A stretch of 64,000 bases of DNA, taken from positions 5,215,501 to 5,279,500 of the forward strand of contig NC_088303.1 in the NCBI RefSeq assembly GCF_032854445.1, given 5' to 3'. This document shows, one piece after another, positions 5,562 through 47,156 of this stretch; within the stretch, counting starts at the first letter, position 1; the number at the start of each line of letters is the position of its first letter. The stretch is from Liolophura sinensis. Lineage: Eukaryota; Mollusca; Polyplacophora; Chitonida; Chitonidae. The position numbers and the translations under genes are program-made. The notes below the pieces were generated by a model that saw only the letters and a list, made by a program, of their open reading frames with translations, made no database searches and had not been told where the DNA came from.

Positions 5562-8500
5562 CTACGCATCTGCCTTCAGTTGTCTGTCAGTCAGCGACAC
5601 TTTTTCCCCGGGCTTGAAGGCCGGCATTCCCAAGTAAGGACAGCTGGCACAACGGAATGCATCTCCCAGGTAACACTGAAATGTACCAACATAATCAGCA
5701 GGTTTATTTGTTGTATTTTTTTTCAAACCTCAACATACTTCGTATCATTTTGTTTCAAGACCCATTTCAATTTCAAAGGGTTACCCTGGTAAAATAAAGT
5801 GTAACATATTTTCAGGAGTGCAAATCTAATCATGACCCAGGAAATACCTGCCAATCTACCAGAGATAAAACTGTAGTTGGATGCAACATGTATTTATAAA
5901 GATTTACATAAATTATAGCACAACTGGATTATCAATCTAGTGTACATTGTCACTCAGGATGTGTCTTCTGTGGAACATCAGACATCAGACTTACACTTCC
6001 ACAGGCTCGATCATCAATCTAGTGTACACTGTCACTCAGGATGTGTCTTCTGTGGAACATCAGACATCAGACTTACGCTTCCACAGGCCTGATCATCAAT
6101 CTAGTGTACATTGTCACTCATGATGTGTCTTCTGTGGAACATCAGACATCAGACTTACACTTCCACAGGCTCGGTCATCAGTCTAGTGTAAATTGTCACT
6201 CATGGTCTGTCTTCTGTGGAACATCAGACATCAGACTTACGCTTCCACAAGCTCGATCATCAATCTAGTGTACATTGTCACTCATGATGTGTCTTCTGTG
6301 GAACATCAGACATCAGACTTACACTTCCACAGGCTCGGTCATCAATCTAGTGTAAATTGTCACTCATGGTCTGTCTTCTGTGGAACATCAGACATTAGAC
6401 TTATGCTTCCAAAGGCTCGATCATCAATCTAGTGTGCAATGTCACTCATGGTGTGTCTTCTGTGGAACATCAAACATCAGACTTACACTTCCACAGGCTC
6501 AATCATCAATCTAGTGTACATTTATCACTCATGATGTGTCTATGGAACATCAGACTTACGCTTCCACAGGCTCGATCATCAATCTAGTGTACATTGTCAC
6601 TCATGATGTGTCTTCTGTGGAACATCAGACATCAGACTTACACTTCCACAGGCTCAATCATCAATCTAGTGTACATTGTCACTCATGATGTGTCTTCTGT
6701 GGAACATCAGACATTAGACTTACACTTCCACAGGCTCGATCACCAATCTATTGTACCCTGTCACTCATGATGTGTCTTCTGTAGAACATCAGACATCAGA
6801 CTTACACTTCCACAGGCTCGGTCATCAATCTAGTGTAAATTGTCACTCATGGTCTGTCTTCTGTGGAACATCAGACATCAGACTTACGCTTCCACAGGCT
6901 CGATCATCAATCTAGTGTACATTTATCACTCATGATGTGTCTATGGAACATCAGACTTACGCTTCCACAGGCCGATGTAGCGGTCTTCTTGGTGTTAGCC
7001 TTGACCACTCCTAAATTCTCCCCTTCCTGTTCCTCAGCTAGGCCACAGGTGCAGTTCTTGCAGGCTTTCTTCTTTCCCAAGCCTGGGCCACATTCCGCTG
7101 AAATGATCACATGCAGAATGAGAAATACATTACCTTCTTGAACAACATTCCCACAATGAACATAAGTGCAGCTAAGATTCTGTAAGGACTCAGCGACCTG
7201 ATTACCAGTACTTGAAAAACTGTAATCCCATTTGACTACAGAACTACATGTAAATTTAGCTGACACAGATTTTGGTGCTGTCAGAAACAAACATGCTGAC
7301 CAGAAACACAAGCATTACATGTGAACAGAATTACAAGTACATCAGATGATATACAATAGCTACCTGTGGATCAGATACTATACAGATACCAGATGCCAGA
7401 TTAAACCTTGTGTGTTAAGTGAAAGCAGAGATAAGTTTGCTGGAATATGACTGTGATGTACATGTATGTTGGAGTGAAGCTGTGTCAGGACGGGATATGA
7501 AGGTGTACAATGTCAGTACAATTCCTGTGAGGGAAGCTAGACCCCTAATATCACACCTGTAGGGGAAGTTGGATCAGCTTTGTGTGAGGCCCCCAATATC
7601 ATACCTTCAAAGGAAGCAGGATCAGGCTTGTGGGAACAACTCAGATACTAAAGGAAACTGAATCAGGTTTGTATCAAGGACCCCAATATCATACCTTCAA
7701 GGGAAGCAAGATCAGATACTATATCAACTCAGATACTATACCCTTAAGGGAAGCAGGATCAGGTTTGTGTGAACAGCTCAGATACTATACCCTTCAGGGA
7801 AGCTCAGGTTTGTGTGAAGGCCCCCAATATCATACTGTGAAGAGAAGCTGGAACAGGTTTGTGTAAAAAGCCCTGATACAATACCCTTAAGGGAAGCTGG
7901 ATCAGGTTTGTGTGAAGGTCCCGAACATCATACCCTTAAGGGAAGCTGGATCACATTTGTGTAAAAAGCCCAGATACCATACCCTTAAGAGAAGCTGGAT
8001 CAGGTTTGTGTGAGGGCCTAAAATATCATACCTTTAAGGGAGTGAGTGAGTGAGTGAGTGCTTGGGGTTTAATGTCGTACTCAACAATTTTTCAGTCATA
8101 TGACGACGAAGGAATCATTAGGGTGCTTGTACGTGTAATGTGCCTCCTTGTTGCAGGACGGATTTCCAAAGCTCTTTTATTTAGTGCTGCTTCACTGAGA
8201 CGACTTACCGAAGGCAAGTAAGCCGCCCCACCCGAGCCATTATACTGATACAGGTCAACCAGTCGTTGCACTATCCCCTTCATGCTGAACGCCAAGCGAG
8301 GAAGTTACAACTTCCTCTTTTGAAGTCTTAGGTGTGACCCGATCAAGGATTGATCCTGGATCTAACGGTCCCGAAGCGGGCGCTCTACCAACTGTGTTAT
8401 CCGGGCCGGTGCCTTTAAGGGGAGCTGGATCAGGTTTGTGTGAGGACCCCAATATCATACCCTCAATGGAAGCAGGATCAGGTTTGTGTGATCAACTCAA

Positions 8501-11500
8501 ATACTATACCCTTAAGGGCAGCTGAATCAGGTTTGTGTGAAGGCCCTCAATATCATACTTTTAAGGGAAGCTGGACCAAGTGTGTGTGAACAACTCTGAT
8601 TCTATACCCTTAAGGGAAGCTGTGTGAAGACCCCCAATATCACACCTTTAAGGGAAGGAGGATCAGGTTTGTGTGAACAATTCATATACTATACCCTTCA
8701 GGAAAGCTGGATCAGGTTTGTGTGAAGGCCCCCACTATCATACTTTTAAGGGAAGCTGAATCATGTTTGTGTAAAAAGCACAGATATCTAACCCTTAAGG
8801 GAAGCTGGATCAGGTTTGTGTGAAGGCCCCCAATATCATACCCTTAAGAGAGGCTGGATCAGGTTTGTGTGAAAATCCCTAATATCATACCTTTAAGGGA
8901 AGCTGGATCAGGTTTGTGTGAAGGCCCCTAAGATCATATCCTTAAGGGGAGCTTGATCAGGTTTGTGTGAAGACCCCTAATATCATAACCTTAAGAGAAG
9001 CTGGATCAGGTTTGTGTAAAAAGCCAAGATACCATACCCCTAAGGGAAGCTGAATCAGGTTTGTGTGAAGGCCCCAACATCTTACCTTTAAGGGAAGCTG
9101 GATCAGGTTTCTTCAGATCCTCCTCATCCAAAAGGTCATCAGAGTCCATGATATCCAAGTCATCATCTAACACATCATTGGCTGAGAGGGTCCACACCTT
9201 GGCCACACTGGCATCAACTTTGGCTGTTGCTAAAGAGTAAAAGGAAACAGGTGTTTTCAGCACATTTCTTATGTGTTTAATGTGTAATTTAAGAAGGAAA
9301 GACAAAACAGTTGTTGAAAATTTCCAATTGCTGAAAATATTTTCAATATCTTATATGCCAAGCAGCTGCTAATCATATATAAAAAAGAAAAATGTAAGAA
9401 ATTAAATGGGATTAACCGACCTGAAGATTTTAAAGGAAATGAAAGCTTCAGTTGTGAAGTGGACCCAAGCTCATACTCTGGTTTCTTGGCACTGAAGTGG
9501 GCAACTGTCAACTGCAGGTCTGTTTTTAAAATCTTTTGTATCTCGCTCAATTCGGAGGATGGACATTTAACTGTTTTGGCCTGAGAAACAGAGACATAAA
9601 CCAAAGGACACATTGAAGGAAAAATACATTTCAGCAACAAAAATATTGACCAGGGTTATAAGAAAGTGGTACATTTACATGGCTATACTGCCATAGACTT
9701 CTTATCCAGAATTAGCCACCTCTATAGTTTAACCAGACCAATGAGATTATTCCAACCACCAATTACACTCACAGTATATCTTGTAGGATGTTGTTCTGAA
9801 ATGTGATAGTTGCTTTGTACACGTACATGTGTGTAAATGACATTTTCGTACCAGAATCTAAACGGATTCCCATAGGTTTGCTTTGCGGGAATCCATTAGA
9901 ATCTAGGTCAAATCTAGTACCACAAGGTATACAGTTACTTACTAAGTTTTAATATGGGCTGTTTAAAATCAAACGGTTTGGGGATTTTGGGTGACACATC
10001 ATTATACAGGGATAGAAATAAGCCACTCAAATCATAAGGCTAGCAAGGCCAGTTGACTTGGAAATCAACTGGCCCTTCCCCAATTATTTAAGGCCCTTCA
10101 TAATAGAAAAAAGCACTACGCCAATATAGTTTTAACATTGTAGGCTGATTTGAGACATACAGTGTATTATTATTTATGTTCAAAGAATTACAAGATTACT
10201 GGTTACTGATGACCTGACAATTTTTTTTTAAGAAGTTCAGGTACTAGAGGTTTGTAACAAAGAAATCAGCTGTGAACTTTTCATATTGGGTAAGATTTTG
10301 GGGGAACCAGCAAACCTCGCACAGGCCCTATTAGTAAAATATAAACCATCCTCAGACCAAACCTATCAGGTACAGAAGACTGAACTCAGCTGTAGCAGAT
10401 CGAGCTGCTAACATTTCTAATAGATTTGCTACATCACTGTGACATTTGACAGTAGCAAGTCACAATAAAATCCTTCTTTTAGTTCCAAAACTTTAGTGTA
10501 GATGCGATCAAATTTACAAACAAACTGTTTAAAGTGATTCTGGTTCCGCCACTTCCGGTGTTTCATATCTGCTTAATAGCCAACAACATATTTTTTGGTT
10601 TTAATCGTCCTCTGTAGATGGTCAGAACTGCTACCACTGCTGTAGCTGACAAACGGCCATTGCCTTGTTGTACACAAGCGGCATTTCCTACAATTTGTTA
10701 CAAGCTCACTCATTGGTCCACAGGAGCGACACAGCCAATGGGATAGCCTGTATCATAACCACACTAGAAACCAGCACGTTTTGTTAGCTACTTTTCTTTC
10801 ACTTTCACCGACATGACGAAGATCGATCAAACTAAACACACATGAACTCCCATTTTGTTTACCCACCACACCCTAATTCACCAGAGTTTGTGTATACATT
10901 TAAAGCCCCTTATTCTTACAACTACTCTCCCCGCTTCCTGTCCCTAGGCCCACTCGACCCACTGGACTTTGTTATCCCAACTCTCACCACCACGTCAAAG
11001 ACTTTATTTGTCAGTTAGTTTATGCTAAATTTGCTTGCAATATGATTCACATCAAAATTACAAAATTAGTTCACAATTTACATGTACTTTGATCTCTGTT
11101 CAACAGTATAAAAGTTCATGTTTGTATGTTTTGAAAGAGCTGGTTAGCGCACTAGCACAGCGTAATGACCGAGGAGCCTCTCACCAATGCGGTTGCTGTG
11201 AGTTCAAGTCCAGCTCATGCTGGCTTCCTCTCTGGCCGTAAGTGAGAAGGTCTGCCAGCAAGATGCGGCTCTGCCCGGTTTCTGACCACCATAATGCTGG
11301 CCACCGTCGTATAAGTGAAATGTTCTTAAGTACGGTGTAAAACACCAATCAAATAAATAAATAAATGTTTTGAAAGTTTGAAAAAACTGAAAATTTGAGA
11401 ACAACTGGTCATTTTGAAAATTACTTTTGTGACTTTCTTACGGGAATCCAAGCAGATTCCTGTAAATTTGATTTACAGGAATCATAGCGAGAATCGGATT

Positions 11501-13093
11501 TCTGAATTCCTGTCGAAAGTAAAGCCCTGTGCAGGAAGTAGTACATGAGGAAATAGAAATAAACAGTGAAAAACACAGCCTTGTTTTACTGGACATTATG
11601 GACAGTGAAACAGCCATATCATCTATCTCTGCGGCCTTGTAATCACACTGAATGGCAATCAAACAAAGCTGCCAGGATCCTCTTTCATTTCATACTTTCC
11701 TGAAACTGCCAATTCCCCTCTCACCGGATGAGTTATTCAAGTCTGAAAACAGCTGGTAAAAGAGATTTCTACTTGTAATTCAGATAAGTAAAGATAGAAC
11801 GAGTGCTGCACCAATTGTCTGGCCAGGTAAAATAAAGCCTAAATCACTCACTTCTAACCATGCCAAGCTTGGTGTTTAACACAATATTAAAGAATATTTC
11901 ATTTATATGATGACTCGGCAATCACCAACAAATCCTAGCTGGCTGAGCCACAATGCCTACAAACTTATTGGCCAAGGGGCTAGCAGCACAAAATGAATAC
12001 TGTTACTTACCTCTGATATATCAACAAATCCTGACAGCTTTATCACAGACGCTAATTTAGCTTGTGTTTTAATGTTAGATGTGCCTTCAGCTGACATGAC
12101 TGGCTCTCTAATAACAACAACTCCACTTGGTCGCAGTATTCTACACACTTCACCCAGAAGCTCAACATCATGCTGTATGCAACAAGGGGAAGCAACTCCT
12201 GACAGCACAACGTCAAATGTGGATACTCCATGTGAAGCTGAAACACAAAGGTTCCAAGGTGAATGAAAGATTATGGCTTCATGTCACTTCAACAATATAG
12301 CAGCCATATGGTGGTGTGAACATGTTAAACTAGGAGACAGTAGATGACCTTTCATGCGGCAATAAAAACATTACACAAAAGCAGACATTTTTAGAAGTAG
12401 ATAAAATAACACTAATATTGTATACTAGAAAATCAGTTATATATTTAGGTTTTATGATGTCAAAACCAAGACATTACCAGCACACTGAAACTCCTTCAGT
12501 TTGGTTACATACACATGCCACACTGCCAACCTAGAGGGGTCACTTTAGTCAAGAACACACCATCAACCTTGAAGGGTCATATTACTTACATATACATTGT
12601 CAATCTAGAGCGGTCACTTTAGTCATGTATATATGTATACACAAGGACAACCTGTTGGGGTCAGTTTGGTTACGTACACCTGCCACAAGGTCAACCTAAA
12701 GGGGTAACTTTAGTCGTGTACACACTATCAACCTTGAAGGGTCATATTACTTACATATACATTGTCAATCTAGAGCGGTCACTTTAGTCATGTATATGTA
12801 TACACAAGGACAACCTGTTGGGGTCAGTTTGGTTACGTACACCTGCCACAAGGTCAACCTAAAGGGGTAACTTTAGTCGTGTACACACAATCAAACTTGA
12901 GGGGTCACATTAGTTACTTACACACAGTCAACCTTTCCACATTCTCCACCTGGACTTTTCCTGTGCCCACTTTCTGTTGCAAGTTTTCCACAAGTGTCTT
13001 CACAACCTCAGGGGACTGGGAGCCACCCCATAACACCAGTACGTTGTCCCCATTCTTCACTGGTAAATCCTCTATGTTCTCTGGAATTCCCAT
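5562..13093 (-). CDS. CIAPIN1: Anamorsin (CIAPIN1), cytosolic Fe-S cluster assembly factor
   Basis: Six coding exons on the minus strand: 13093-12922, 12237-12011, 9580-9421, 9229-9086, 7097-6961 and 5675-5562 (954 nt, 317 aa; human is 312). All junctions are GT-AG and phases agree. Residues 1-170 follow the SAM-methyltransferase-like domain ([25 protein letters not shown]-type block). Then come an acidic linker ([21 protein letters not shown]) and two cysteine motifs: C237-x9-C247-x2-C250-x-C252 and C278-x2-C281-x7-C289-x2-C292. The second is split by intron 5. The family accepts electrons from the diflavin reductase NDOR1 for cytosolic Fe-S assembly. The ATG follows an acceptor directly, so a 5'UTR exon must lie upstream, probably in 13700-13950. 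Introns 1, 4 and 5 hold arrays seeded by the preceding donor site. Confidence 0.96.
5925..6972 (-). repeat. Donor-containing tandem array in CIAPIN1 intron 5 (82-bp unit, 12 copies)
   Basis: Twelve units of about 82 bp (75 bp in two) run from the 3' end of exon 5 into the intron. Read on the gene strand, each unit carries GCCTGTGGAAGC or a near match followed by GTAAGT. The first 12 bases equal the last 12 bases of exon 5 (6972-6961), and the next six are its donor. Donor-like sites lie near 5993, 6076, 6156, 6239, 6320, 6402 (GT lost to AT), 6482, 6557, 6638, 6720, 6802 and 6884; the real one is at 6960. Two 75-bp units 402 bp apart point to block duplication of about five units. Confidence 0.93.
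7510..9110 (-). repeat. Donor-containing tandem array in CIAPIN1 intron 4 (49-bp unit, about 25 copies)
   Basis: Unit about 49 bp; roughly 14 regular copies at 8407-9108 and about 11 more irregular ones at 7510-8040, split by a family B SINE at 8041-8406. On the gene strand each unit contains a version of AAACCTGATCCAGCTTCCC TTAAAG, the last 25 coding bases of exon 4 (KPDPASLK), followed by GTATGA or GTAAGA. The exon 4 boundary at 9086 is the right-most copy. Copies further from the exon are more diverged. Confidence 0.92.
8041..8406 (-). mobile_element. SINE family B, copy 2, inserted into the intron 4 array
   Basis: Near-complete copy, with GAGTGAGTGAGTGAGTG tail at left and tRNA-like head at right. 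On the minus strand the head reads CAGTTGGTAGAGCGCCCGC (A box), then GGATCAATCC (B box). It is flanked on both sides by CCTTTAAGGG, a unit motif of the array, consistent with a target-site duplication of about 10 bp. The array therefore existed before this insertion. Confidence 0.9.
10047..10074. other. Perfect 10-bp inverted repeat
   Basis: GGCCAGTTGA and TCAACTGGCC flank an 8-base loop inside CIAPIN1 intron 2. The surrounding GGGATAGAAATAAGCC stretch looks like a dispersed repeat, but no boundaries are visible. Confidence 0.5.
11136..11366 (+). mobile_element. SINE family A, copy 4 (CIAPIN1 intron 2)
   Basis: Forward copy, antisense to CIAPIN1, missing the first bases of the head. It carries GCTGGTTAGCGCACTAGCAC, GAGTTCAAGTCCAGCTCATG (B-box-like), the CCACCATAATGCTGGCC body and an AATAAATAAATAAATG end. 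A very decayed reverse fragment lies at about 11868-11955. Confidence 0.88.
12495..12930 (-). repeat. Donor-containing tandem array in CIAPIN1 intron 1 (37-46 bp unit, about 10 copies)
   Basis: About ten units of 37-46 bp begin with the last bases of exon 1. On the gene strand the exon end AGGTTGACTGTGT is followed by GTAAGTAACT..TGACCCCTC, and intron units read AGTTTGATTGTGTGTAC, AGGTTGACCTTGTG, AGATTGACAATGTATATGTAAGTAA and so on. Only some copies keep GTAAGT. A four-unit block of about 168 bp (12560-12727) is repeated at 12728-12893. Confidence 0.87.
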
Positions 13094-13700
13094 CTGGGCA
13101 AAAAATAAAAAGAAAATTTCCCTAATTCTGAGTAATGACAGGTTCTCTCTGCACATGCAGATAAATAAACATATGCATCAAAGAAAAGAATATGCTGGAC
13201 ACTTTCACGGAGCTGTCAAGCTGAGGGTGCTGTAATTCGGTATAGTGACATCAGTTCATTGATGGACACATAAGTTCACGATTTCATGTTTGAAATGTAA
13301 ATTAAAACATGTGGTGACCAATACCCTGGGAGGCTCAAGTATGTATATATAATAATGTATGTATTTGTTGTTCCCAGGGGCACTGACCTAATCAGAGTAA
13401 ACACACTAAGTTTTCACCAGGATGTCATGTACATGTATTCCTACTATACCAAACTATATTACTTCTAGTAGTAGGCATAAGTAGACCCAACAAAAATATC
13501 AATAAATCGGCATCTTAACACAGAAAACAATTCAAGAAAATGGAGAACGGAAGGGTGAAATAACCACAACAGCACAATTTCCGAAATTTACACAATTTTT
13601 GTTCTAAAATGATTTTCTCTCGTCACGCATTTACCCTTCTGTTATCTGCAGTATCATGGATAACATGCGCAGTATACGATATCTTGGGTTGCTTTGGATC

Positions 13701-14193: not shown

Positions 14194-17100
14194 ATGGATG
14201 TGGACGAGAACGCCTGGGAGTACAACTGTCCCCAGTTTGTAGATTTTTCAAATCCGGATGCACTACCCCAAGCAGATGACAAAGAGTTCTTCAGTGTTGG
14301 TAAGTTCAATAAAATGATCTGAAAGTGCAACGATCTTGCAAGGAAACGTTTTCTAACATGCTGAATATTTCGGGCAGTGACTATCACATGTTTGTTTGTA
14401 ATTTTTTCTCTCTCCCTCACCCTCCTCTCAATATTAAATGCCATAATTACTCTTATTTCAAAGTGATGTAACAATTCCTTTGCTTCTATTTGTGGAATAA
14501 GATGAAAAAACGCAACTTTGATTGAAGTGATGCTCGAAATTATATAATGCTATGGTATGACTATCAGTGACAGTTGTCGATGAAGATCGTGAGAATCTTG
14601 TTTCATTAGTTTAATTAAATTAAACACTGAGGTTTATTTTCAACAATTTCTGATAATTACCTACCTGAAAGCTTAATCACTGAACTGAAACAGTAGCACC
14701 AATTTCTGGTGTGGATTGAAAAGAGTTTAACCTTAATTACCTCTCCTGCAAGCAAAAACCAGTTCTTGAGTCGCAATGTTGTTGAAATCCACAGAAATAT
14801 TCCCCTCTGTCTTAATAACTTTTGTGCTGTCATGATGAGTCATGTACTGAAGTCTCGAAACTACGCACTGACAAAGTATTGAAATCAACCTTACAAAATG
14901 AGACCATACTGCCAGTCTTAAATGACCAGTTTCAAGTTGGTTTCATGTAGGTAGAATATGTAGGTAGAATAAAATAGAAGAATTTGCCCAGTCAATCGAG
15001 AGAGAAAAGTCAACTTGCAGATATCTATGTTTATCCATGTTTTCTGGTCCTGGCTTCAGATACTATCTGGATTTTGGATACACCCAATGCGTGTTGACTG
15101 CAAACTGAGATTTTGAAAAATAGAAAAGTCAGTGCTTGTTCAGATCTTGGGATTTGTGAGGACTAGGTTCTTTATGTGTTAATTGCCGCATGCTTGTAAA
15201 CCCTGTTAAACCCCAAGCATTTATTCATTCATTCATTCTATTTTTGGTACATTTAGCTGCCAGTGTCAAGGAGGAAGACTTTACGGCTCCTGTAGCAAGT
15301 GAAAAACCCCAGGCTACATCCAGTAAGTACTACTTCAAGATTACTTTGCGGGTTCAGGGGCCACTTTCACAAAACTCTAAAAGTCACATTTCTCGTAACT
15401 TTTTTGAGTAAAAGTTGTCTAGGTTATGGATCTATAAGGCGATGTCATTTTTTGAGAAAAGTTACAAAATTTTGATTTATGAAATTTTGTGAAAGTGGGC
15501 CCTGGTTCAGGTAACAAAAATCAAATAGGCATAAAAGTGAATTAAGTTTTCCGAAGTTGTTACATGTATGTTAGACTTGTGTCTCCATGTGCTTGTTCAC
15601 AATTTCATGCTGAGTGTAATGTTAAGTTATAGTAAGGAAACTCGTTTGGAACAGTGAATCAGAGGTTTGAATTTGTATCAGTTTTCCAACGACTAGTTCA
15701 GTTGGCCTTTCTAAAGTGTTTTGTTAATGGTAATGAGGTCATCAAGTTTGTCATTTTGAGGGCACTTCGGTTTCCTCCACCCATATGACAGCTGATGTGA
15801 AAAAGTACAGTTTCTAATGTTACGTATTTTTGGAACCTTTTAGCCTAGGTAATGTGCACTTTAGGGAAATTTTAAGCATATTTTGATCTCCCCTAATGAG
15901 TTCATAAGCAGTCCTGTGCATAGTGTCATGAGTTAATGACTTGTTTATACATGTACAGTAACATAAACATTTGAGGACATTGTCAACAGTTGGTGTAATG
16001 CGTAGAAGACCATCCCACAGCAAGACTGCACATCTGTGTCAATTGTCATTGTTTTATTTATTTTGTTTAGTCCTCCTCCTAAGTTTGGTTTACTTAAATT
16101 TTCTTGCTGCACATGAGTTGTTGAAAGTTATGTATTTTGATTAAGTTTGTGTTGACGTTATTTACTTTCAGAAATTATACCCGAAAATTAAGATCATACA
16201 TTATTAACTTGTCTTTGTTTAGACTGACTTATTCAAGTTTGTTGGTTGCATTGCACCTAACATCTACTTTTCTACAATCTTGAGTTAATTTAAATTTTTT
16301 TTGTTTTCATCTTTAATATATTCAACCCTTATGTATTCAAATGTGGTTTCAAAAAGTAACACATACTGACATAAAGCAGTACATGCTCTGCGTTGTGATT
16401 TAAACGTTGGTTAAAATTTACAAGCACTTTGATATTCAGATGTAACTTATAATGATGGCATTAATGATGGCACAAGTACAACATTTTTACTTACATGTAT
16501 TTCTCATGACCTTTTGTTTATTATAATATTCCAGGTGAAGTAATAAGTATACCTGCAGGATTAGTATTTTAAAATAGAATTCTGCTCAATTTCACATCCA
16601 TTTTGTTATTATATTAATATTACACTACATGTACGTAATTAAATATCACTCTCAACATCTCTGTTTTCATAAGCAGGATCACGAGAAACTACAGTAAGGG
16701 TAAATTATGAACAGAGGCTTAAAACAGAAGACATTTGGTAATACTACACCTTAAATGGCAGAGAATATTTGAGATCTAATATGTGCACAACTACTTCCAG
16801 AGCTTAAGAATCCAGCTGAGCTTAATACATCACATGTGTAATCTCATGATTCATTGAATTTCATTGTAAATTTATTAAATGTAACTTGATCATATAAGAG
16901 ATTGACTTTAACACTGTAGTCCGTCTCTGGTTGCAGATTCTGGCCCAAGTAACGTATATTCCTCTTTGGACGCATGGAATAGGACGGGAGCCAGTAAAAG
17001 TACTGATTCCTCCAAACCAGTGGCTGTGGATAAAAGGTCAGTGTGCTAAGTTTGGATCTGTATCGTTCAAGAATACCTTGTTTGGATTTGAAGTAAGAAG

Positions 17101-29240: not shown

Positions 29241-29244
29241 GACA

Positions 29245-33120: not shown

Positions 33121-33138
33121 GATGACTTGGCTGTGAGA

Positions 33139-36100
33139 TCAATGGAACAGCATTGGGTCAGCTTGGTTTCCAAATGTCAATCTCCATGAACTAGGAATTT
33201 TCCACATGGGCGATCTCTGCCCTTCTGATGTCTCAGATGCAGATGGCTCCTGAAATGTGAATAATTTCATGCAATTAATTCTCTTTAAGACATATTTTTA
33301 GATATATCTGAAGACAACCATTTTGTACTAAATACAGAATGTGGTCATATGTAGTACATATGTAAATACATATGTAGAACATCTTCACATTTTTACCATC
33401 CTAATAATTTTAATTAGAAATGGAGCCATTAATTAGCATGAATAGCTAAATTCTAATAAATACATATAACCTGGATGACTCCTTCAAAAAATGTGCTAAT
33501 TTAACAAGAATATTTTATTTCTCTGCTGGCAATCAGACTTTAATATGGGTAAGGGAAACCGAGCACACCAAGACAGACATGGCTGCACTCTGCCAGCTGC
33601 CAATTCCACAAAGTGAAATTTGAGTACGGATTGATACAATTTCCTACTGGAAATACTGGCTCAACTGAGACGGTAACTTGTGACTTTGGCTTCCTAACCC
33701 TGCCCACCTACCAGCAGCTGGCATAGTTAAGGTGCTGCAGGCACCGGAGATGACACCTTGCCCAGTCACAGTGTACTAACACCAGCCTAGCTATCTGTTA
33801 AGGATAAATGTTGAGCAAGGGAAATTGTTAATTATAAAGTCTTCAGGAATTACCAGATTTGGATATACACCTTGGTTCCTTGTTCTGAGGCAGGTCATCT
33901 ATCCCTCTCCCAACACAGCAAGCTAACTATACAGTACAGATATGAAATAATGTCATGTGGTGATGACTTACCTGCTGAGGTAAAACTTATAGATATTGAT
34001 TGATATGATGACTTATCTGCTGAGGTGAACCTTGTAGATATCAGTTGATGTGATGACTTACCCACTGAGGTAGAACTTGCAGAAATTGGTTGATGTGATG
34101 ACTTACCTCCTGAGGTAGAACTTGTAGATATTGGTTGATGTAATTAGCTAATTGTACTGCATCTGGAGCATTATCGCCCTCTGCACAGAATGTCAAGACC
34201 AGTAACACCGCCACATCATTGTAACTGAAAATAAACATGAGGAAATGTTCCAAGAATAGCCAAGATGTTTTGGTTTGATTGTCCTGCATCATCAGCATCA
34301 GTAATTTTTCACTTAATGTCATACTATGTGATGACTGCCAATGTCCTATGGGGGAATAAAATCACCAATATTTTGGAAAGATCATCTGCCAAACTTTTCC
34401 ATGTGTGACATATGTCATGCTGATTAATAGTGCAAGTCATCTCCAGTACACTTCAGAGGAATCTTAAAAATTTCCATCTGGGAATGGTATTGAAGCAATA
34501 CATCAGCTTACCTAGTGAACGAAAGGTAAGCGCCTTAACAACTCTGCCATGACATGCATACACATCAGCATGCGTTTTAATGTTGTACAGTACTTAAGAA
34601 TATTTTGCTTATATGACATTGGTGAGAGGGTGGAGGAAACAGGGTAGAGCTCAGAGGAAACATGGCATATTGCCAAGTACATGTACCTGTAAACAGAATT
34701 AAAGGTACGCTCTATACGCTCGCTTTGCATCACTATCACCACTGAAGAAGCTTGACTTTAGGAGCCTATGCAGCGCATGTTGACTTGCTTAAACAGTCTC
34801 ACCACAGGTCTTTTCCTGCAGAAGTATTTAAACCACATTCGGCAATAAAATTGCTTTAGGTCTTATGCATACTTTAGATAGAGAATTTATGTGCATAAAG
34901 TATTATTAGAAACCAAGGCTGCGACAGAGTTTTTGTGTTGGGGACACTGGGATGTCTGACATGTAGAAGATCCTAAAGAATGAGAGATCCATTGGTCAGA
35001 GTCACAAACAGATCATGTGTGGTATTGATAAAATAAGTGATCCATTGGTCAGAGTCACAAACAGATCATGTGTGGTATTGATAAAATAAGTGATCCATTG
35101 GTCAGAGTCGCAAACAGATCATATGTGGTATTGATAAAATAAGTGATCCATTGGTCAGAGTCACAAACAGATCATGTGTGGTATTGATAAAATAAGTGAT
35201 CCATTGGTCAGAGTCGCACACAGATCATGTGTGGTATTGATAAAATAAAATAAGTGATCCATTGGTCAGAGTCGCAGACAGATCATGTGTGGTATTGATC
35301 AAATAAGTGATCCATTGGTCAGAGTCGCAAACAGATCATGTGTGGTATTGATCAAATAAGTGATCCATTGGTCAGAGTCGCAAACAGATCATGTGTGGTA
35401 TTGATAAAATATACCATTAACATTGCAGCACTTGCAGACTGACAAGTATTTTATAGACAAATGGTCAACACTGGAGGTCTTTATAAATGCAGACGCAGAT
35501 AAATAATTAGAAGGAGAATAGATCTGGAATTATGGAGGCCATGTGTTGACTCAGGCTACCTGCCTTGGTAAATACACAGTGTGAGAACAGACGTATATCA
35601 GTGTATTATGTAATAAACACACACAAACAAATATGCTGTATTTCACCTGAATGTTGTCATCAAAGCATGTTCAGGCTTTGTGCTTCTGAAAGTGCATTTT
35701 TACCTACCAAACATTAGGTGAAATACAACAAATATATGTAGCTTACCAATCCTCAAAAAGTGCCTTAGCAATGCCTCCCCCAGGGATATAGACTGACTCC
35801 TGACCTCTAGTGTCAGCCTGGTCTATAGACGACGGTGCAGGAAAAGCTATCCTCTTCTCTAAGCACTTCCACTGCAGCTTTTCCCTCACCAAATTGTCCA
35901 ATCTATCTGTCATCTTTGGAGAAGCTAAGTATCTTTGCTGAGAACTGAAACATTGAGAGAACCTACTTATTTATTTGTCTATTACCTGCTTCAAAGAAGA
36001 TGTCTTCTGAAATTTCGTGCATTCAATTTTGGAGATGATAGAGACAAAAGGAAGTTTTTTAAAAACAATTTCTCACCATGTGCTGATGTGGCAGAAATCA

Positions 36101-39100
36101 ATAGTACTGTTCCTTTGTCATTAATGGATAAATTTCTACTATTAGCTGCAGTCGAGGTTTGCTCTCTCTGACTGCGCTATAGTTTAATACATTACAGCCC
36201 GATGACATTATGGCTAGCATTAAGGACTTGAACTGTAAACACTCCCTGTTTGTAAACAGTTTCATATGCCAATATATTATCTTTCCTTCAGTCCGAAGTT
36301 TTATTTAATTTCTCTGTTACTCACTAGACCTTTCTGAAGAATTATTCACTTACATGATGCAATGGTGGTCAAGATTATAGGTGAAACTAACCAGAGTGTT
36401 TGAGAGAAACCACTGTCATTCACAAGCTACCTGCCAAATCTCGAGTTAAACCTGTCACTGTACCAGCAAGAACTGGATTTGAATCTGTGACCACAATGGT
36501 CAATGGCTGGCTGACTGGCTGGATGGCTATGGTGATAACAAAGCTTAAATACAATGAGCCAGCGAGTGCCCCTACATCTGAAGACAGCTGACTGTAGAAC
36601 TATAAGATGAGCTTACCCTGACAGTTGCTTGTCCACTCTCTCATGAGCATAACTACTGGTCAGTATAACCACTTGGTCAAACCCACACTTTTTGATCCAC
36701 TCCACCAGTTTTCTTCTGAAAGATCTTCTCTTACCCTGCAAAAAATACAAGTATTCTTATCATCCCATAATTACAGGTAATTGTATGGTGCAATAATTAC
36801 AGGTAATCGTATCGTGCAATAATTACAGGTAATTGTATGGTGCAATAATTACAGGTAATCGTATCGTGCAATAATTACAGGTAATTGTATCGTGCAATAA
36901 TTATGAGGACTCTTGTGCTCCAATAATTTCAGATACTCTTACCTTACTTTAATTACAGATACTCTTATAATAATTAAAAGTACCTGTACTCTTCAATTAT
37001 CACCTGTAATCTTACCTTACATGAAACACAGGTACAATAATTACAGATACTCCTTCAACAACTATGAGTATAAGTACTTTTACTTTCTGCGAATTACCAG
37101 TACTCTACACAGTATCAGTTTCGACATTGGACAGATTCAAGAGGCTTCCTGAACAAAATACATTGAACCCTCAAATATGCAACACATTTTAGTTTGGGTG
37201 TCTATATCTAATGTACTGGTGGAATTCTTGAATACAGCATAAAATACCAATCCAACAAATTAACACTGACTTCCTTTTCTTAAATTTCTGGTTTGGCTCC
37301 TAGAAAATGTGATGTTACCACATTAATTCTATATCCCAAGGGGCCAAAGTGGGTATCAGAACAAACATTTCAAGGTAAATTAATATACAGTTGCACTTTA
37401 CATTTGATAGAAACCTTCACTTTAACCAAGCCCTCCAAGAATACCTGGATGTTAATAGAAATTGCTAAAATGATATATTTATTTATTTATTTATTTGACC
37501 ATCCACAGATTGCTGGAAGACCTTCCCACGTCCGACCCGAGAGCAAGCCAGCATAAGCTGGACCTGAACTTACAGTGACAGCATTGGTGAGATTACGTTG
37601 CGCTAGCGTGCTAACCAAATGAGCCATGGAGACCCGCCTAAAATGATATAAAATCCACTAAGCTACTAAAACAAAAGAAAGAAACAAAAAAATAATAATA
37701 AAAACACTTCTAATTCTGATTGGTGTATTACGCCATACTCAAGAATATTTCCCTTATACGACGAGGACCAGCATTATGGTGGGAGGAAAACGGGCAGAGC
37801 CTGGAGAAAACCCATGACCATCCGCAGGTTGCTTGCAGACCTTCCCACTCATGGCAGAAGAGGAAGCCAGTATGAGCTGGACTTGAACTCACAGTGACTG
37901 CAGTGGTGAGAGACTCCTGGGTCATTATGCTGCGCTAGCGCGCTAACCAACTAATCTATGGAGGCCCCAAATAAAAACACAGACTAACCTTCACAAAAGG
38001 CGCTCTCTGCTGGATGATGATAATTTTGTCCTTTGAAGACTTGTAAACTGTAAGATCAATAACATACAGATAGGAGTACTACAAAGACAAATTTATTTAC
38101 CTACGACATAAACACATCATAACACAATAGTAAAGTTTGAATATATGCTGTGGAAAAGACACTTTTATATGGAACAAAAAATCTTTAAATGACTGTTAAA
38201 CTTTCTACCAGTTGAAATCTCACACATTTACATGTAGCTCTAGTTGGCAACATAACAACTGAAAAATAAATGCATTAAAAAAATATTTCAACAAAAGTGA
38301 CACAGCACGTACCTTACATACATATATACATGTCCATAGATGTATAATATTTTTCTTAAAAATCCTTCACTTATATTTCATGAAGAATCTTTTTATCTTT
38401 AATACACAGAGACATGGATAAGAATCCTTGCTTTCATCTTACTCTCACAACTGGTGACCAGCTGACATGATTCTGAATCCAGCCTGGAGAATGGGTCATT
38501 GCCCACCATGGGCAGTATGCTGTCATCGTGACTGTAACCCATCCTTGTCATCTCCATTGAGGATATGATCAGGTCTGTCGTCAACTGACCCACATTGCCC
38601 ACAGAAACTGCTGGCTGTCCAAAGACAAAATCAGAGGCTTTTTACTTAAATGGATTTTTAATGAATTGCATAATGACTATATCAGTCTTCATATAGTCTT
38701 ACTTGTTCCACTCACAGATATTGAAAAGTTAAATTACTTCCTGATAAAAACTGGGCCCTTTATATAGGAGTACAGGGTTTACATTACTTATTTATTTGAT
38801 TAGTGTTTAACACCATACTCAAGAATATTTCACTTATGCGACGGCCAGCATTATGGTGTGAGGAAATCCACGACCACATGCTGGCAGACCTTCCCAAACA
38901 CAACTGGAGAAGAAGCCATGGTGAGCTGGACTTGAACTCACAACAACTGCATGGTTGAGGATTTACATTAACACATGTAACTTATACATATTGTTATTCA
39001 TGGTCATAAGTTTACATAAACACATAATGATATATTATTTATTTGATTGGTGTTTTACGCCGTACTCAAGAATATTTCACTTATACGGCGGCAGCCACCA

Positions 39101-39674: not shown

Positions 39675-39734
39675 TATTCAATGAACGAGAAGCTGCCCAA
39701 TTAAATCAATAACAAAACGCTATATCATGTCAGT

Positions 39735-39765
39735 TGATGGGGGCTGCCATATTGGAAGTGCCCGG
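39735..39765 (-). promoter_or_regulatory. Candidate PSMG2 core promoter (YY1-like and ETS-like sites)
   Basis: About 70 bp upstream of the PSMG2 ATG, the minus strand reads AATATGGCAGCC (39753-39742), a match to the YY1 pattern. The plus strand has GGAAGTG (39754-39760), an ETS-type core, directly beside it. Paired YY1 and ETS sites near the start are common in animal housekeeping genes. Function is inferred. Confidence 0.4.
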
Positions 39766-39991
39766 ATTAAGGACTTCCCATTTTAACGAGAGGAGGGACA
39801 GGAAAAGAAAAGATGTGATTAAAACGTTAAAAGCTTGGCTTATTGTGTAAAGGAACAAATGCGTGTCCCTAATTCCGTACAAGAGGTCATCGGTTAAAGA
39901 TCTATAGCCTTTTAGCACAAAACTGGATGCAAACTGAAACAAAACACTGTGTTACATTCACAGTAACTCGGTTAATGGTTTAGCCTATATT

Positions 39992-40004
39992 GGGTCAAAG
40001 GTCA
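39992..40004 (+). promoter_or_regulatory. DR1 nuclear-receptor element upstream of FMO-A
   Basis: GGGTCAAAGGTCA is two AGGTCA-type half sites in direct repeat with one-base spacing, the site class bound by HNF4 and RXR heterodimers. It ends 49 bp before the FMO-A ATG at 40054 and follows a TATA-like CTATATT (39985-39991). The pairing with a xenobiotic-type enzyme gene is suggestive; binding is not shown by sequence. Confidence 0.55.
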
Positions 40005-40053
40005 TCGTAAGCATTACAACCACATGAGACCGTCGAGACTAATATCGAAGGTG

Positions 40054-43000
40054 ATGCCAGCGATCAAAGTTGCAGTGATAGGGGGCGGGGCAGCAGGATT
40101 GTGCGCTCTCCGCCACCTGACAGCCCGACCGTCAGTCTTTACTGCTGTCGGATTCGAGCAGACGAACAGAGTTGGAGGAACCTGGGTGTACACAGACGAT
40201 GTGGGTACCGACCAGTTCGGATTGCCCATCCACTCCAGCATGTACAAAAACCTCAGGTCTGTTCAATACCATGGAATGACACAAGCGCTGGCAGCTAAGC
40301 GACATTGCTAAACTGCATGTGCTGACAAGGCTGATGTGTCAGTTTGATGCTTGAAATGTGAGACGAATCCTGCATGAACATATAGTATGTACAAAGGCCT
40401 GTATCTACCTACATGTATATCTAGAAGCCTATATACGGCAGCCTGCAATAAATAAGGCTTGGTACACCACAGATACACTTGTGTTATTCATGTCTGATTT
40501 ATTAGGCTATTAATATTTCTGCAAGCTGTCATTATGTGTATTAACATTAACAAGGTCAACCAGTCTCAGGCACGTACACACACCTTCTAGAGGTGTAACT
40601 TGAATATGTGGGCCTTGGTGAAGGACAAGTCTGAAATTTGAATAGGCCAGATTTGTATGGAAGCCAGTAGATGCCCTATTGCTTCCTTGCCTTATTTTAC
40701 AAAGTCGAGGTAGCAAGATGATTCATATGTTACCTGACTTCGCTACTTTTTTACCTCACTGCCTTGTATTAAAACGGTCAAGGTAGCAAAAGGTTCTCTG
40801 TTGGCTTCCATACATTACGGACATTAGCTGAGAGTGGAATTAGATAGTCCCATTGACACAATGCCTATGTCGTATACTTTCAGGACTAACCTTCCTAAAG
40901 AGGTGATGGCCTTCCCCGATCTCCCGTTTGATAAAGAACTCCCCAGCTTCATCAGACACGAGGATGTCCAGGCTTATCTAGAGACTTATGCCAAAATGTT
41001 TGATCTGCTAAAATTTATTAAGGTTAGCAGTTGCATAATACAGTATTGGTCAACTAAAGAGCAGTAAGAACATTGCAGATTCTAGCCTGGCTAAATGTAC
41101 ATTTACAAGTTGTTATAAGGCTATATTTGATTGAATGAAGCTCCCAGTTAAGCTTCCTCTCACTAGACAGATCAGCCACACACAACTAATGCCTTTGTCT
41201 CGCACTCTGAGGTGTCCAGTTATGCATAATGGTCCAGCAGCAGTGTGGTTGTGCATAATGGTCCAGCAGTGTGGTTGTGCGTAATGGGCCAGCAGTGTGG
41301 TTGTGGGTAATGGTCCAGCAGTTTGGTTGTGCGTAATGGTCCAGCAGTGTGGTTGTGGATAATGGTCCAGCAGTTTGGTTGTGCGTAATGGTCCAGCAGT
41401 GTGGTTGTGCGTAATGGTCCAGCAGCCTGGTTGTACTTTATTTTCCAGCAAGTTTTTCCTGCTGGATGGTTCTGCTGAATGTTCCATCAAGCTGGATTGG
41501 TCTACTTGATGTTTCAGCAAGCTAGTCTTGCTGGATGGTTCTACTTGATGTCCCAGCAAGCTGGCCTGGCTTGATGTTCTAAAAGGCAGGTCCTATTTGA
41601 TGTTCCAGTATGCTTGTCTTGTTTGACGCTCCTGATGTATGGTCCAGCTTTATGGTCAAGCAGGCTGGTCCTGCTTAATGATTTTGGAGGCTGGTTCAGA
41701 TTCATGTTCCAACAGGATGGTTCTCCTTGATTTCCCAGCCAGCTGTTCGGATGCACGGTTTTCTTTGATGTCCCAACAGGCTGGTTCTCTGCGATTTCCT
41801 AGGAGGCTGGCTCTCCTTGATGTTCTAGCAGGCTGGCTCTCCTTGATGTGCCAACAGGTGGGTTCTACTTGATATTCCAACAGGCTGGTTCTCCTTGATA
41901 TGCCAACAGGTGGATTCTCCTTGAAGTGTCAATAGGCTGGTTCTCTTTGATGTTCCAGCAGGCTGGTTTTCCTTGAAGTGCCAACAGGCTGTTCTCCTTG
42001 ATGCTCTAACAGGCTGGTTCTTGATTTTGTAGCAGGCGGGTTCTCCTTGATGTTCCAGCAGGCTGGCTCTCCTTGATGTTCCAGCGGGCTGGTTCCCCTT
42101 GATATTCATACAGGCTAGTTCTCCTTGATAATACAGGCTGGTTTTCCTTGATGTTCCATCAGCCTGGTTTTCCTTGATGTGCCAACAGGTGGTTTCTACT
42201 TGATGTTCCATCAGGCTGGTTCTCCTTGATGTGCCAACAGGTGGGTTCTACTTGATGTTCCAACAGGCTGGTTCTCCTTAATATGCCAACAGGTGGGTTC
42301 TCCTTGAAGTGTCAATAGGCTGGTTCTCTTTGATGTTCCAGCAGGCTGGTTTTCCTTGAAGTGCCAACAGGCTGTTCTCCTTGATGCTCTAACAGGCTGG
42401 TTCTCCTTGATTTTGTAGCAGGCTGGTTCTCCTTGATGTTCCAGCAGGCTGGCTCTGCTTGATGTTCCAGCAGGCTGGTTCCCCTTGATATTCCTACAGG
42501 CTAGTTCTCCTTGATAATACAGGCTGGTTTTCCTTGATGTTCCATCAGGCTGGTTTTCCTTGATGTGCCAACAGGTGGTTTCTACTTGATGTTCCAACAG
42601 GCTGGTTCTCCTTAATATGCCAACAGGTGGGTTCTCCTTGATATGTCAGTAGGCTGGTTCTCTTTGATGTTCCAGCAGGCTGGTTTTCCTTGAAGTGCCA
42701 ACCGGCTGGTTCTCCTTGATGTTCCTACAGGCTAGTTGTCCGTGATAATCCAGCAGGCGGGTTTTCCTTGATGTTCCAGCAGGCTGGGTCTCCTTGACAT
42801 CCCAGCAGGCTGGTTCTCCTTGATGTTCCTACAGGCTAGTTGTCCATGATAATCCAACAGGCGGGTTCTCCTTGATGTCCCAGCAGGCTGGGTCTCCTTG
42901 ATGTTCCGGGAAGCTGGTTCTCCTTGATGTGCCGACAGGTGGGTTCTACTTGATGTTCCAACAGGCTGGTTCTCCTTGATTTTCCAGCAGGCTGGTCCCT

Positions 43001-46000
43001 GTTGATGTTTCCAGCAGACTGGATCTACTTGATGTTCCAGCAGGCTGGTTTTCCTTGATGTTCCAACAGGCTGGTTTTCCTTGATGTTCCATCAGGCTGG
43101 TTTTCCTTGATGTGCCAACAGGTGGTTTCTACTTGATGTTCCAACAGGCTGGTTCTCCTTAATATGCCAACAGGTGGGTTCTCCTTGATATGTCAGTAGG
43201 CTGGTTCTCTTTGATGTTCCAGCAGGCTGGTTTTCCTTGAAGTGCCAACCGGCTGGTTCTCCTTGATGTTCCTACAGGCTAGTTGTCCGTGATAATCCAG
43301 CAGGCGGGTTTTCCTTGATGTTCCAGCAGGCTGGGTCTCCTTGACATCCCAGCAGGCTGGTTCTCCTTGATGTTCCTACAGGCTAGTTGTCCATGATAAT
43401 CCAACAGGCGGGTTCTCCTTGATGTCCCAGCAGGCTGGGTCTCCTTGATGTTCCGGGAAGCTGGTTCTCCTTGATGTGCCGACAGGTGGGTTCTACTTGA
43501 TGTTCCAACAGGCTGGTTCTCCTTGATTTTCCAGCAGGCTGGTCCCTGTTGATGTTTCCAGCAGACTGGATCTACTTGATGTTCCAGCAGGCTGGTTTTC
43601 CTTGATGTTCCAACAGGCTGGTTCTCCTTGATGTTCCAACAGTCTGGTTCTCCTTGATGTTCAAACAGCCTCGTTCTCCTTGATTTCCCAGCAGGTGGGT
43701 CTTGCTGGATGGTTCTGCTTAATGTTCCAGCACGTGGGTCTTGCTGGATGGTAGTGCTTGATGTTCCAGCAGGCATGTCTTGCTGGATGGTAGTGCTTGA
43801 TGTTCCAGCAGGCAGGTCTTGCTGGATGGTTCTACTTGATGTTCCAGCAGGAAGATCTTGCTGGATGGTTCTGCTTGATGTTCCAGCAGGCGAGTTTTGC
43901 TGGATGATTCTGATGGATATTTCAGCTTGGTGGCAGATCTTTGATGTTCCAGCAGTTTGTGTCCAGTAGTTTCAGCAGGTTGATCCAGCTGTTGTGTCCA
44001 GCAAGATGACTCTGCTTGATGTTCCAGCAGGCAAGTCCTGCTTTTGTGGCTCATCTTTGTGGCCTGCTTGATATTCCTGCAGACTTGTCCCACTTGATGG
44101 TCCAGATTGATGGGCAAACTGTTTGGTTGATGTGATGGCTTACGGTTGTTCACATTGGGCCCAAGTGCGCTGTAAATATGTCAGTGGTATTTTAGTCGAA
44201 AGTGCCTGATACATACAACTTATAAGTGAGCTAGATGATACCCACTCAACTAGCACCCTACATTTGATTGCAGAAGAAAAGAATGAAAAATATTTTGTTT
44301 TATGTTCAAAATAGTTCAGAACATCTGTGGATAAAGTCAAGCCAATCCCAGGTAACCCTGTGAGATGGGAAGTGAAGTACAGTAAAGTTACGGGGAAGAT
44401 ATCCCCATCAGAGAATACACCCCCGACAAAAAGTACACCCCCATCAGAGAATACACCCCCATCAGAGAATACATCTCCAGCAGAGACAGAGATCTTTGAT
44501 GCTGTTATGGTGTGTAATGGGTGAGTCTCAGTTAGGAAATAGGGGTGTATAATAGTGATGATTGCCACTAGCATCATCAGGGCTTCCACTGTCCACTATA
44601 GGTCTAGCCACACATGTTTGGCTCAACTGATCTGACGATGAACTAACATACCAAACAGTACAGAGCCACACCTAAACCTTTAAGAAATCAGCCAGGACCT
44701 AGAAGCCCGTTCTCACAGTCACATAGCGTGGGGTTTTCCATCTTCAGGTAATTACACAGCATCACACACACACAAAATGCACACACGCCCCAGTGCCAAC
44801 CCCTTTGTGGATAACTCGGACTGTTTTGAAATACATGGCTTGTAGATCCTAAACAAAGCGACCCTGTTAGAACTATCGGCAGTACAACTTAACGAAGTTG
44901 GCCGTTTGCTGACATCTTCGTCCCTCGTAAGTTTTGTGTGCAAAATTAAGTTGGTAAGATCTGCGAGTACATGTCACACGACATCACAGAAGATTGCGCG
45001 GTTCTGTCAAATAGAAACAAGGCTATCGTTTCCGGAGATGGAGACCCCGGCAGTGAAAACACATGGATTTACACTATATATTGACCGGAATCTACGAAAC
45101 GAAGACACACAAATGTTCAAATACTAGTAGGTTTGATCTTGTCACTGACATACAAATATACCAGGTCAGTCCTTGTTATAATGCATTTCTAAAGCTTGCT
45201 GTCAGGAAGCATGTTTTTCTTCTTCCAACGCCTGGGATTTCATCCGAGGAGTAGGTGAAACTGACCTGCTGAGTATTTTAGTATATTGTCAAATCAGGTG
45301 TCAGCTTCACTCGTGGAGCTACTATATGTTTAGCTCAGTGCAGTATTAGCAACATGTGCTCTTCTGCTGTAGTGTGCGGAGTTGAACCTCAGCTTTGTCC
45401 AGTCAACCACTCCGCTTTATGGTAAACCATGACCATTCCTGGTAGAGTTTACCATGCTTTTGACATAACTCTGACAAGTTCTGTGGCATTCCACTCTTCC
45501 TCTACATGACACTTTGTGAATAGGCTGACCTTGAATAAAGTTGGTTAGTAAGGTGTATATATGCAGGCTTCATCTGTAATATCACTTTTCATTTTGTCAA
45601 AAATAGGTCAGATATTCATCTTATATTTTTGTCAGATTTTTTTTCGTATTAGCTCGTATTTCTGAAACAATATTCTACACAGTCTTATGTTGCATTCCCT
45701 TGTTATAATTCGTATTAAGTACTGAAAGCTCAGCATCTTATAGTACACCGAAAGTGGAAATATACATGTGTAAGATGAATTTTGTAAATAGCAAATATTC
45801 GTAGTGATAAAAACAGAAAGTAAGGTTATGATGAAAGTATCCTATGCTATATTGTGTCAAGAATTCATTCATTGTGTTTCTGGATTTTTTCTTTTTAGCC
45901 ATTATTCCATACCAATGTTTCCCCAAATTCCGGGTGCTGATAGTTTTAGGGGGTGTCTCCTCCATAGTCATGACTATAGAGACCCAGAACACTTCAGGGA

Positions 46001-47156
46001 TAAGAAGGTGGTTTGCTTGGGTGCCGGGTCATCGGGGCAGGATATTGCCTTAGAATTATCCAGGACAGCTAAGGAGGTGAGTTTTTGGGTGGAAGTTGGT
46101 GGGGTGAGGCATGAAGAGGACAGATAATCAGGACAGCTAAGGAGGTTAGTAGGGGAAAGGTTGGCAGTTATCGTGGACAGTGGTGGCAGCTACAGTAAAT
46201 GGGACCGTGGACGCCTTGGTGTAATTTTCCAGTTGCCTTAACGATGTGCTGTACATGCAAAACTTTATAAACTTTTAAGAAATATAAGTTCTACTGATGT
46301 AGAAAAAGATTGAATTTTTTTGTAAAATGCATTTCCTGGCTAAAATTTCCTGAATGTGGATAAAAGCTAACATCATTGTTATGGTTACAATACACTTGAC
46401 CTTGACCAATGCGAAAACCTGTTAGATGCCAGTTTTACCAGTTTGGATGGAATGAGGACATCCACAATATATTAAGTGAAATATTCATAAACACATGATC
46501 AATTTTCAAATTATTTGTTGCAGGTTATACTGAGTCACAACAAAAGTTTTATCCAATGCCCCCTGCCCGAGAATATGTACCAAGCTCCAGGGATTAAAAA
46601 ACTCCAAAAAAACTCAGTTGTTTTCAACGATGACTCTGAAGTAGATGACGTGGACTTGGTTTTGTGTTGTACTGGCTATCACTTCAGTTTTCCTTTCTTA
46701 TCTGAGGAGTGCGAGCTAAGGATCGAAGACGAAAGATTGACTCCACTCTACAAGCACCTTATACACACGCAGTTCCCATCACTCTCGTTTATCGGGATAT
46801 GCAAAGTTATCTGCCCTTTCCCGCAGTTCCATTGTCAGGTGTTGTTTGCCTTAGCAGTTCTCGATGGGTCTCTGAAACTGCCGTCAAAAGAGGAGATGGA
46901 TGAAGACACAAAGGCTGATTTTCAGGCACGACTCAAAGATGGCTTGCTGCCTCGCTATGCACATCACATGGGCCCAAGACAGTGGAACTACAATAATGAG
47001 CTGGCCAGAATTGCCGGATTCACACCAATAGCACCCGTTGTGGAGAATTTATACAGTGTCGTACATAACAGCAGAGGGAGAAACCTCATTGGTTATAAAA
47101 AGGAGAGGTACGAATTGACAGGCCAGGAGAGTTTTAAAACACTTGGGGCGCCATGA
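40054..47156 (+). CDS. Flavin-containing monooxygenase (FMO GS-OX-like), copy A
   Basis: Five exons: 40054-40256, 40884-41022, 44315-44520, 45899-46076, 46524-47156 (1359 nt, 452 aa). An in-frame ATG at 40024 would add 10 residues. The enzyme oxygenates soft nucleophiles (N or S) using FAD, NADPH and O2. Visible motifs: FAD-binding GGGAAG at 10-15, the FMO signature F199-x-G-x3-H205-S-x2-Y209, NADPH-binding GAGSSG at 224-229 and CTGY at 291-294. Length fits invertebrate and plant-type FMOs (about 450 aa) rather than membrane-anchored vertebrate FMOs; no C-terminal membrane anchor is seen. Exon 3 contains an extra Pro/Ser-rich stretch at about residues 143-174 made of SENTPP repeats. It starts 380 bp from PSMG2 in divergent orientation. 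An AATAAA at 47295-47300 is a likely poly(A) signal. Confidence 0.95.
41205..44115. repeat. Large minisatellite in FMO-A intron 2 (about 28-31 bp unit)
   Basis: About 100 units of TTGATGTTCCAGCAGGCTGG with TTCTCC and variants fill most of intron 2. Block duplications are visible: about 386 bp (41825-42211 against 42211-42597) and 547 bp (marker CGTGATAATCCAGCAGG at 42741 and 43288). The left part (41215-41420) uses a shorter unit (GTGGTTGTGCGTAATGGTCCA), the right part (43690-43910) a unit with TCTTGCTGGATGGT. Minus-strand frames of 128-165 codons are by-products of the repeat. Confidence 0.93.
44400..44485 (+). repeat. Coding minisatellite in FMO-A exon 3 (18-bp unit)
   Basis: CCCCCATCAGAGAATACA recurs in frame with variants, giving ISPSENTPPTKSTPPSENTP and so on. 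FMO-B exon 3 is 66 bp (22 codons) shorter and lacks it, so the repeat accounts for the length difference. It sits between two strands of the core fold in an apparent surface loop (inference). Confidence 0.9.
46055..46150 (+). repeat. Duplicated exon 4 end with donor in FMO-A intron 4
   Basis: The last 19 coding bases of exon 4 plus donor (AGGACAGCTAAGGAG then GTGAGT, boundary at 46076/46077) recur 68 bp downstream (AGGACAGCTAAGGAG then GTTAGT, boundary at 46144/46145). A single extra copy. Use of the second donor would add 68 bases and shift the frame. Confidence 0.9.

Follow-up and report, generated by a model that had tools for sequence, protein, structure and literature searches.

Minisatellite-like tandem arrays that run across exon–intron boundaries recur genome-wide in the chiton Liolophura sinensis, and they are found more often at 5' splice sites (donors) than at 3' splice sites (acceptors), which are affected too. 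In two samples of exons, arrays spanned 20/282 donors and 6/281 acceptors (Fisher p = 0.0078), a moderate bias whose direction was the same in all tests and which was weaker when splice-site calls were set aside. The minisatellites spanning such boundaries that our literature search turned up belong to a small number of genes in amphioxus and in human, whereas here approximately 7% of the sampled donors, in ordinary conserved mollusc genes, carry one. The likely explanation, in our judgment, is that these arrays are minisatellites of the type named 'mirages' in amphioxus, arising by random tandem duplication and tolerated as long as the exon-proximal splice site is the one used.

Boundary-spanning arrays in the 64-kb window

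In a preliminary description of the window (the whole stretch of 64,000 nucleotides that was analysed), five tandem arrays were said to be seeded at donors, with the repeated unit beginning in the end of the exon and continuing into the intron. This geometry is directly visible in CIAPIN1 introns 1, 4 and 5 and in PSMG2 intron 6, but FMO-A intron 4 holds a single 22-nt copy and no array. The CIAPIN1 intron 5 array (5927–6972, minus strand; 82-bp unit, about 13 copies), delimited by TRF together with reading by eye, begins within the final 12 exon bases, 6961–6972, with 6960 as the first intron base; TRF ended it at 6956, four bases inside the intron, and the remaining bases to the exon were assigned by eye. 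In CIAPIN1 intron 4 the TRF array (7649–9110, minus strand; 49-bp unit, about 23 copies) includes 25 exon bases, the first intron base being 9085, and thus starts in the exon and passes through the donor as described; it is, however, not continuous, since it consists of two TRF blocks (7649–8041 and 8415–9110) around an unrelated stretch at 8042–8414 (strand not assigned), delimited by the sequence and the gap in the TRF output. By eye, that stretch appears to be SINE-like. The array of CIAPIN1 intron 1 (12496–12935, minus strand; TRF) has a 37-bp unit with a 163-bp higher-order period and includes about 13 exon bases, with 12921 as the first intron base, a position that is the computed value shifted by one base. 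Finally, PSMG2 intron 6 carries four copies of a 45-bp unit (33960–34141, minus strand; TRF), of which about 33–35 bases are exonic, the first intron base being 34106.

The FMO-A case (46061–46150, plus strand) is absent from the TRF output and came from a repeat comparison: the end of the exon with its donor, 46061–46082, recurs once at 46129–46150 (22 nt, 95% identical), and the first intron base is 46077. As a contrast, a second TRF array of PSMG2, made of 26-bp units (36737–36958, minus strand), ends at the acceptor AG of its intron and does not enter the exon. Between 14180 and 29361, the TRF output contains a single entry, 13 bp x 2 at 14945. Of the units, that of 82 bp from CIAPIN1 intron 5 was searched in the genome (609 Mb, 632 contigs), where it gave 13 matches, all at its own locus, so that a transposed or dispersed repeat is unsupported as the source of this array, a missing match elsewhere being no proof of absence.

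The exon ends of CIAPIN1 (six exons) and FMO-A (five exons) were set by exon translations. The joined CIAPIN1 protein matched the Pfam families CIAPIN1 (1.4e-22) and Anamorsin_N (8e-49), and the joined FMO-A protein matched FMO-like (3e-67). A partial PSMG2 translation had no Pfam hit at 0.001 and matched the solved 'Proteasome assembly chaperone 2' (E 4e-24). Models were rebuilt for CIAPIN1, FMO-A and part of PSMG2; the denominator of 30 introns against which the five cases had been set, which also takes in TPX2, FMO-B and the rest of PSMG2, is that of the preliminary description.

Frequency at donors and acceptors

The first sample consisted of myosin, kinesin and SNF2 domain exons, chosen blind to repeats (81 + 132 + 58 = 271 matches), of which 27 had been removed beforehand for two or more stops or for being too long; the 244 that passed were read in 175 stretches with flanks of 500 bases on each side. 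Junctions were placed by splice-signal scores near the ends of the matches, giving donors for 244/244 exons and acceptors for 243/244, and an array was taken as spanning a junction at a TRF score of at least 40. Before inspection, which was limited to spanning cases, arrays crossed 19/244 donors and 7/243 acceptors. L064, a partial exon copy within an array, was then removed on both the donor and the acceptor side, L129, whose true donor lies upstream of the array, was reclassified as non-spanning, and the donors of L148, L025 and L068 were reassigned by hand to the first copy, which left 17/243 donors against 6/242 acceptors (Fisher p = 0.031). In the second sample, of TCP-1 exons with 450-base instead of 500-base flanks, 47 of 50 matches were entered (three long, apparently intronless ones being omitted), the filter retained 44 and sequence was retrieved for 39, in which arrays crossed 3/39 donors and 0/39 acceptors. 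The directly counted frequencies of both samples treat exons of one gene as independent, L083 and L084 lying in one gene cluster and L192 being counted twice.

The excess does not depend on TRF. When the criterion was a perfect match, 14 nt or longer, between the sequence across the junction and the adjacent intron, 16/282 donors and 3/281 acceptors of the two samples qualified (p = 0.0038), including one donor (L054) additional to the 20 TRF cases, and junctions paired with other introns gave 0/5599 donors and 0/5574 acceptors. Chance is excluded, because five rounds of shuffling the sample loci produced one donor-spanning and no acceptor-spanning array. Acceptor calls were less sure than donor calls, 138/243 acceptors reaching a splice score of at least 3 in the first sample vs 166/244 donors; among ends with such a score in both samples, the counts were 19/192 donors and 3/162 acceptors (p = 0.0016). 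With splice calls ignored altogether, arrays reaching at least 6 bases into the domain match numbered 16 on the 3' side and 6 on the 5' side, of 282 (p = 0.048), this comparison including the acceptor-side case L079, which is outside the six; at 10 bases the counts were 14 vs 4 (p = 0.028) and at 15 bases 12 vs 3 (p = 0.033), and all three 3'-side counts contain the false donor L129. The earlier suggestion that the window arrays are separate events sharing one geometry is supported; the geometry recurs genome-wide, and sampled donors are affected about three times as often as acceptors.

Array positions, splice signals and reading frames

At points located 200–450 bases into the sampled introns, array coverage amounts to about 12 to 17%, and the genome is thus rich in minisatellites. 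The preliminary description had made it a test whether arrays overlap donors more often than acceptors or other intron positions; the first half agrees with the sample counts, but donors were not covered in excess of the mid-intron points (19/244 in the first sample before inspection vs 12 to 17%), and the excess exists only in relation to acceptors and in where arrays start and end. Near donors, 17 arrays enter the exon, nine stop 5–60 bases short of it and one stops within 5 bases, while near acceptors six enter the exon and 15 stop short (donor vs acceptor, p = 0.019). The share of the unit contributed by the exon ranges from 0.23 to 0.94 (mean 0.54) and is indistinguishable from uniform (KS p = 0.27, n = 17), which argues that the ends of the duplications are not set by the donor; we saw directly, among these 17, no preferred position of the duplication end relative to the donor. 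Array starts in exon bases -60 to -5 (13) did not differ significantly in number from those at intron +5 to +60 (9; p = 0.52). Further into the intron, at +100 to +350, a stretch that may extend beyond short introns, 20 starts were counted in 250 bases, or about 4.4 per 55, so that the 13 in the 55 bases of the exon tail are approximately three times denser. These figures leave room for a bias of array origin toward the 5' ends of introns.

A mutational process targeted at 5' splice sites or at intron 5' ends, such as transcription-associated or R-loop-associated breakage or slippage, with selection in a minor role, would fit this denser seeding in the exon tail and the ranking of donors above acceptors. 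We nevertheless regard it as unlikely: the exon tail and the first intron bases do not differ significantly in their starts, the endpoints are spread over the unit and acceptors carry arrays as well, and a process aimed at donors, as the preliminary description had put forward, is not supported by these starts or by exon shares that cannot be told apart from uniform. A broader proposal is that chitons, and perhaps other molluscs, seed tandem duplications genome-wide at the 5' ends of introns, with many introns starting with serial donors; we consider it doubtful, and mention it for what would follow. If true, such seeding would count among the main ways in which introns grow and would supply new exons and introns; it would also provide a natural library in which position, not strength, decides between identical donors.

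The copies inside the introns retain the splice signals to a large extent. In 19/23 donor arrays the first donor is equalled in score by at least one copy downstream, so that many arrays present a working gene with a series of donors of the same score. Compared with its own copies, the first donor exceeds their mean in 16/23 arrays, with five ties (p = 0.005), a result that regression to the mean could also yield. GT is kept in 152/165 downstream donor copies in an ungapped search, which also underlies the counts over 23 arrays, may take in out-of-register hits and favours copies resembling the first; a separate count, excluding CIAPIN1 intron 5, mis-aligned there owing to a first copy of less than unit length, gave 121/137, and at L140 GT is present in 0/3 copies. 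Over 19 arrays, however, the conservation of GT did not differ significantly from that of other unit positions (0.95 vs 0.93 agreement, p = 0.10), and neither purging nor preservation of decoy GTs is thus indicated, as expected for copies that splicing ignores. The six acceptor arrays keep AG in 41/48 upstream copies.

Reading frames can be followed directly. If the nearest downstream donor-like copy were used, the frame would shift in 14 arrays and an in-frame stop would be read in four, i.e., 18/23 arrays would be broken or stopped, which speaks against routine use of the downstream donors; in the other 5/23 the outcome would be an in-frame insertion without a stop. On the acceptor side, use of the nearest upstream copy would shift the frame in 5/6 arrays. 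The length of the unit is divisible by three in only 5/17 arrays, ruling out a coding role for the copies as a general rule. Because the frames would mostly break with the nearest copy despite the presence of equally scored ones, splicing probably relies, as a rule, on the exon-proximal site at both donors and acceptors, and strength alone would not account for the choice. Since the donors of such a row are equal, RNA junctions at these introns would directly test whether the spliceosome chooses the first-transcribed, the exon-proximal or the strongest site.

That the downstream donors are functional, either as alternative donors or as decoys for U1, and that the arrays have been selected for, would agree with the frequent retention of GT in both counts, with the five arrays in which an in-frame insertion is possible and with the human IFI6 gene, in which repeat units serve as additional donors (as cited in PMC4526556). 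We judge it improbable, as retention of GT is not significantly above that of other positions and GT is missing from all three copies of L140, 5/17 units are multiples of three, and most arrays would suffer a frame break or a stop. An artefact, whether from misplaced exon ends, from errors of assembly or from repeats arising by chance, is largely refuted and deserves hardly any weight. In spite of the two sample cases removed on inspection (L129 and L064) and the three donors moved to the first copy, exon ends are supported both by splice signals and by matches to domains; shuffled loci and mismatched pairs yielded next to no spanning repeats, and the assembly is described as HiFi-based (PMC11068029).

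Origin of the arrays and relation to known systems

In the reading that we prefer, i.e., mirage-type minisatellites born of random duplication, a tandem duplication whose ends are placed essentially at random would happen to fall across a splice junction and would then grow as any minisatellite does, via slippage or unequal exchange. The array would be retained where the spliceosome keeps to the exon-proximal site, that is, the first donor or the last acceptor, and its copies would become neutral intron filler. The idea, already present in the preliminary description, that such duplications are tolerated since the exon stays whole when splicing uses the first donor is consistent with the data. 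The directly observed excess at donors could come from selection, its simplest reading being that additional acceptors upstream do more harm than additional donors downstream, and the difference between the two sides may then gauge the harm done by duplicated sites on each.

The preliminary description regarded the serial form as undescribed, but it has precedents. Amphioxus 'mirages' are minisatellite-like tandem repeats, with units of 10–160 bp, lying over exon–intron boundaries at both 5' and 3' ends; they are described from Adh3, the globins BflGb6 and BflGb9, TnC and PGBD5, several per genome, with AG/GT in many copies and with splicing reported as undisturbed, by RT-PCR for the globins (PMC3087553, PMC3902484). 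Length instability, between haplotypes or somatic, is also listed among the mirage criteria. The chiton arrays resemble them in that the repeats contain both exon and intron sequence, in four arrays of the window as well as at the sampled donors and acceptors, and in that many copies carry splice signals. They differ in belonging to a mollusc, i.e., to another phylum, in having their frequency and donor bias measured, and in that normal splicing is here argued from reading frames. The molluscan family of haemocyanin domains, PF14830, has eight successive matches in the genome, in keeping with its origin. In the human IFI6 (6-16) minisatellite, two downstream units act as donors (Turri 1995, as cited in PMC4526556). 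The tandem repeat supplies extra donors in both systems, although IFI6 is, in that account, one gene with used downstream donors, whereas the chiton arrays are distributed over many genes and their donor-like copies are known from sequence. Internal tandem repeats at exon–intron boundaries are also reported to change gene structure in human segmental-duplication genes (PMC2812944). These too are minisatellites located at boundaries, but, unlike the chiton arrays, they concern recent paralogues for which novel introns are reported. A literature search of titles and the beginnings of abstracts, in which few subscription papers were covered, recognised no molluscan or genome-wide report; as far as that search shows, the molluscan occurrence, the frequency and the donor bias are new here.

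Tandem duplication across a splice boundary, which duplicates the splice signals, has been proposed as a route of intron gain, with the RdRp gene of potato as a case (PMC4974935). There a new intron is made, whereas the chiton arrays that were inspected sit in existing introns. Human tandem-array introns are reportedly the subject of a 2007 study by Zhuo. Arrays of the kind found here are a plausible nursery for new introns, and at one locus (L063/L064) a partial exon copy lies inside an array.

A kinesin exon and its partial copy, both with arrays

Two separately read stretches of contig C11, 557 bases apart, carry related kinesin sequences. The first (L063, C11:27412483-27413650) contains a kinesin exon with a donor array after it, a tandem repeat spanning the exon end and the 5' splice site. 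In the second, further downstream (L064, C11:27414208-27415330), part of this exon recurs, and the donor of the partial copy sits within an array of the same kind. This layout resembles a published model in which a new exon is born inside such an array, known as a mirage.

Arrays in CIAPIN1 and PSMG2 introns, and a possible acceptor case

Within the window, a stretch that is SINE-like by eye (8042-8414) divides the CIAPIN1 intron 4 array into two blocks, and the array is therefore probably older than this insertion. In PSMG2, a 26-bp array (36737-36958) has its end point at an acceptor AG and does not enter the exon. Elsewhere in the genome, at the sampled stretch L079, a myosin domain match is entered by an array from its 5' side, the called acceptor not being spanned; this locus may represent a seventh acceptor case.

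Repeats in FMO-A and at other loci

FMO-A intron 2 contains a long run of 26-39-bp arrays (41238-43926); the run begins about 215 bases past the donor and leaves it untouched. Within it, a 26-bp unit is repeated about 75 times (41757-43702). The coding sequence of exon 3 itself carries an in-frame 18-bp tandem repeat (44403-44486), in which the residues PSENTP are repeated. At the right end of the window lies a 47-bp array (63195-63929; 15.6 copies, 94% matches). On contig C8, eight successive haemocyanin PF14830 matches were observed (G000:C8:37880506-37891931), each within an open frame that is 429-529 codons long, so these units probably contain few introns.
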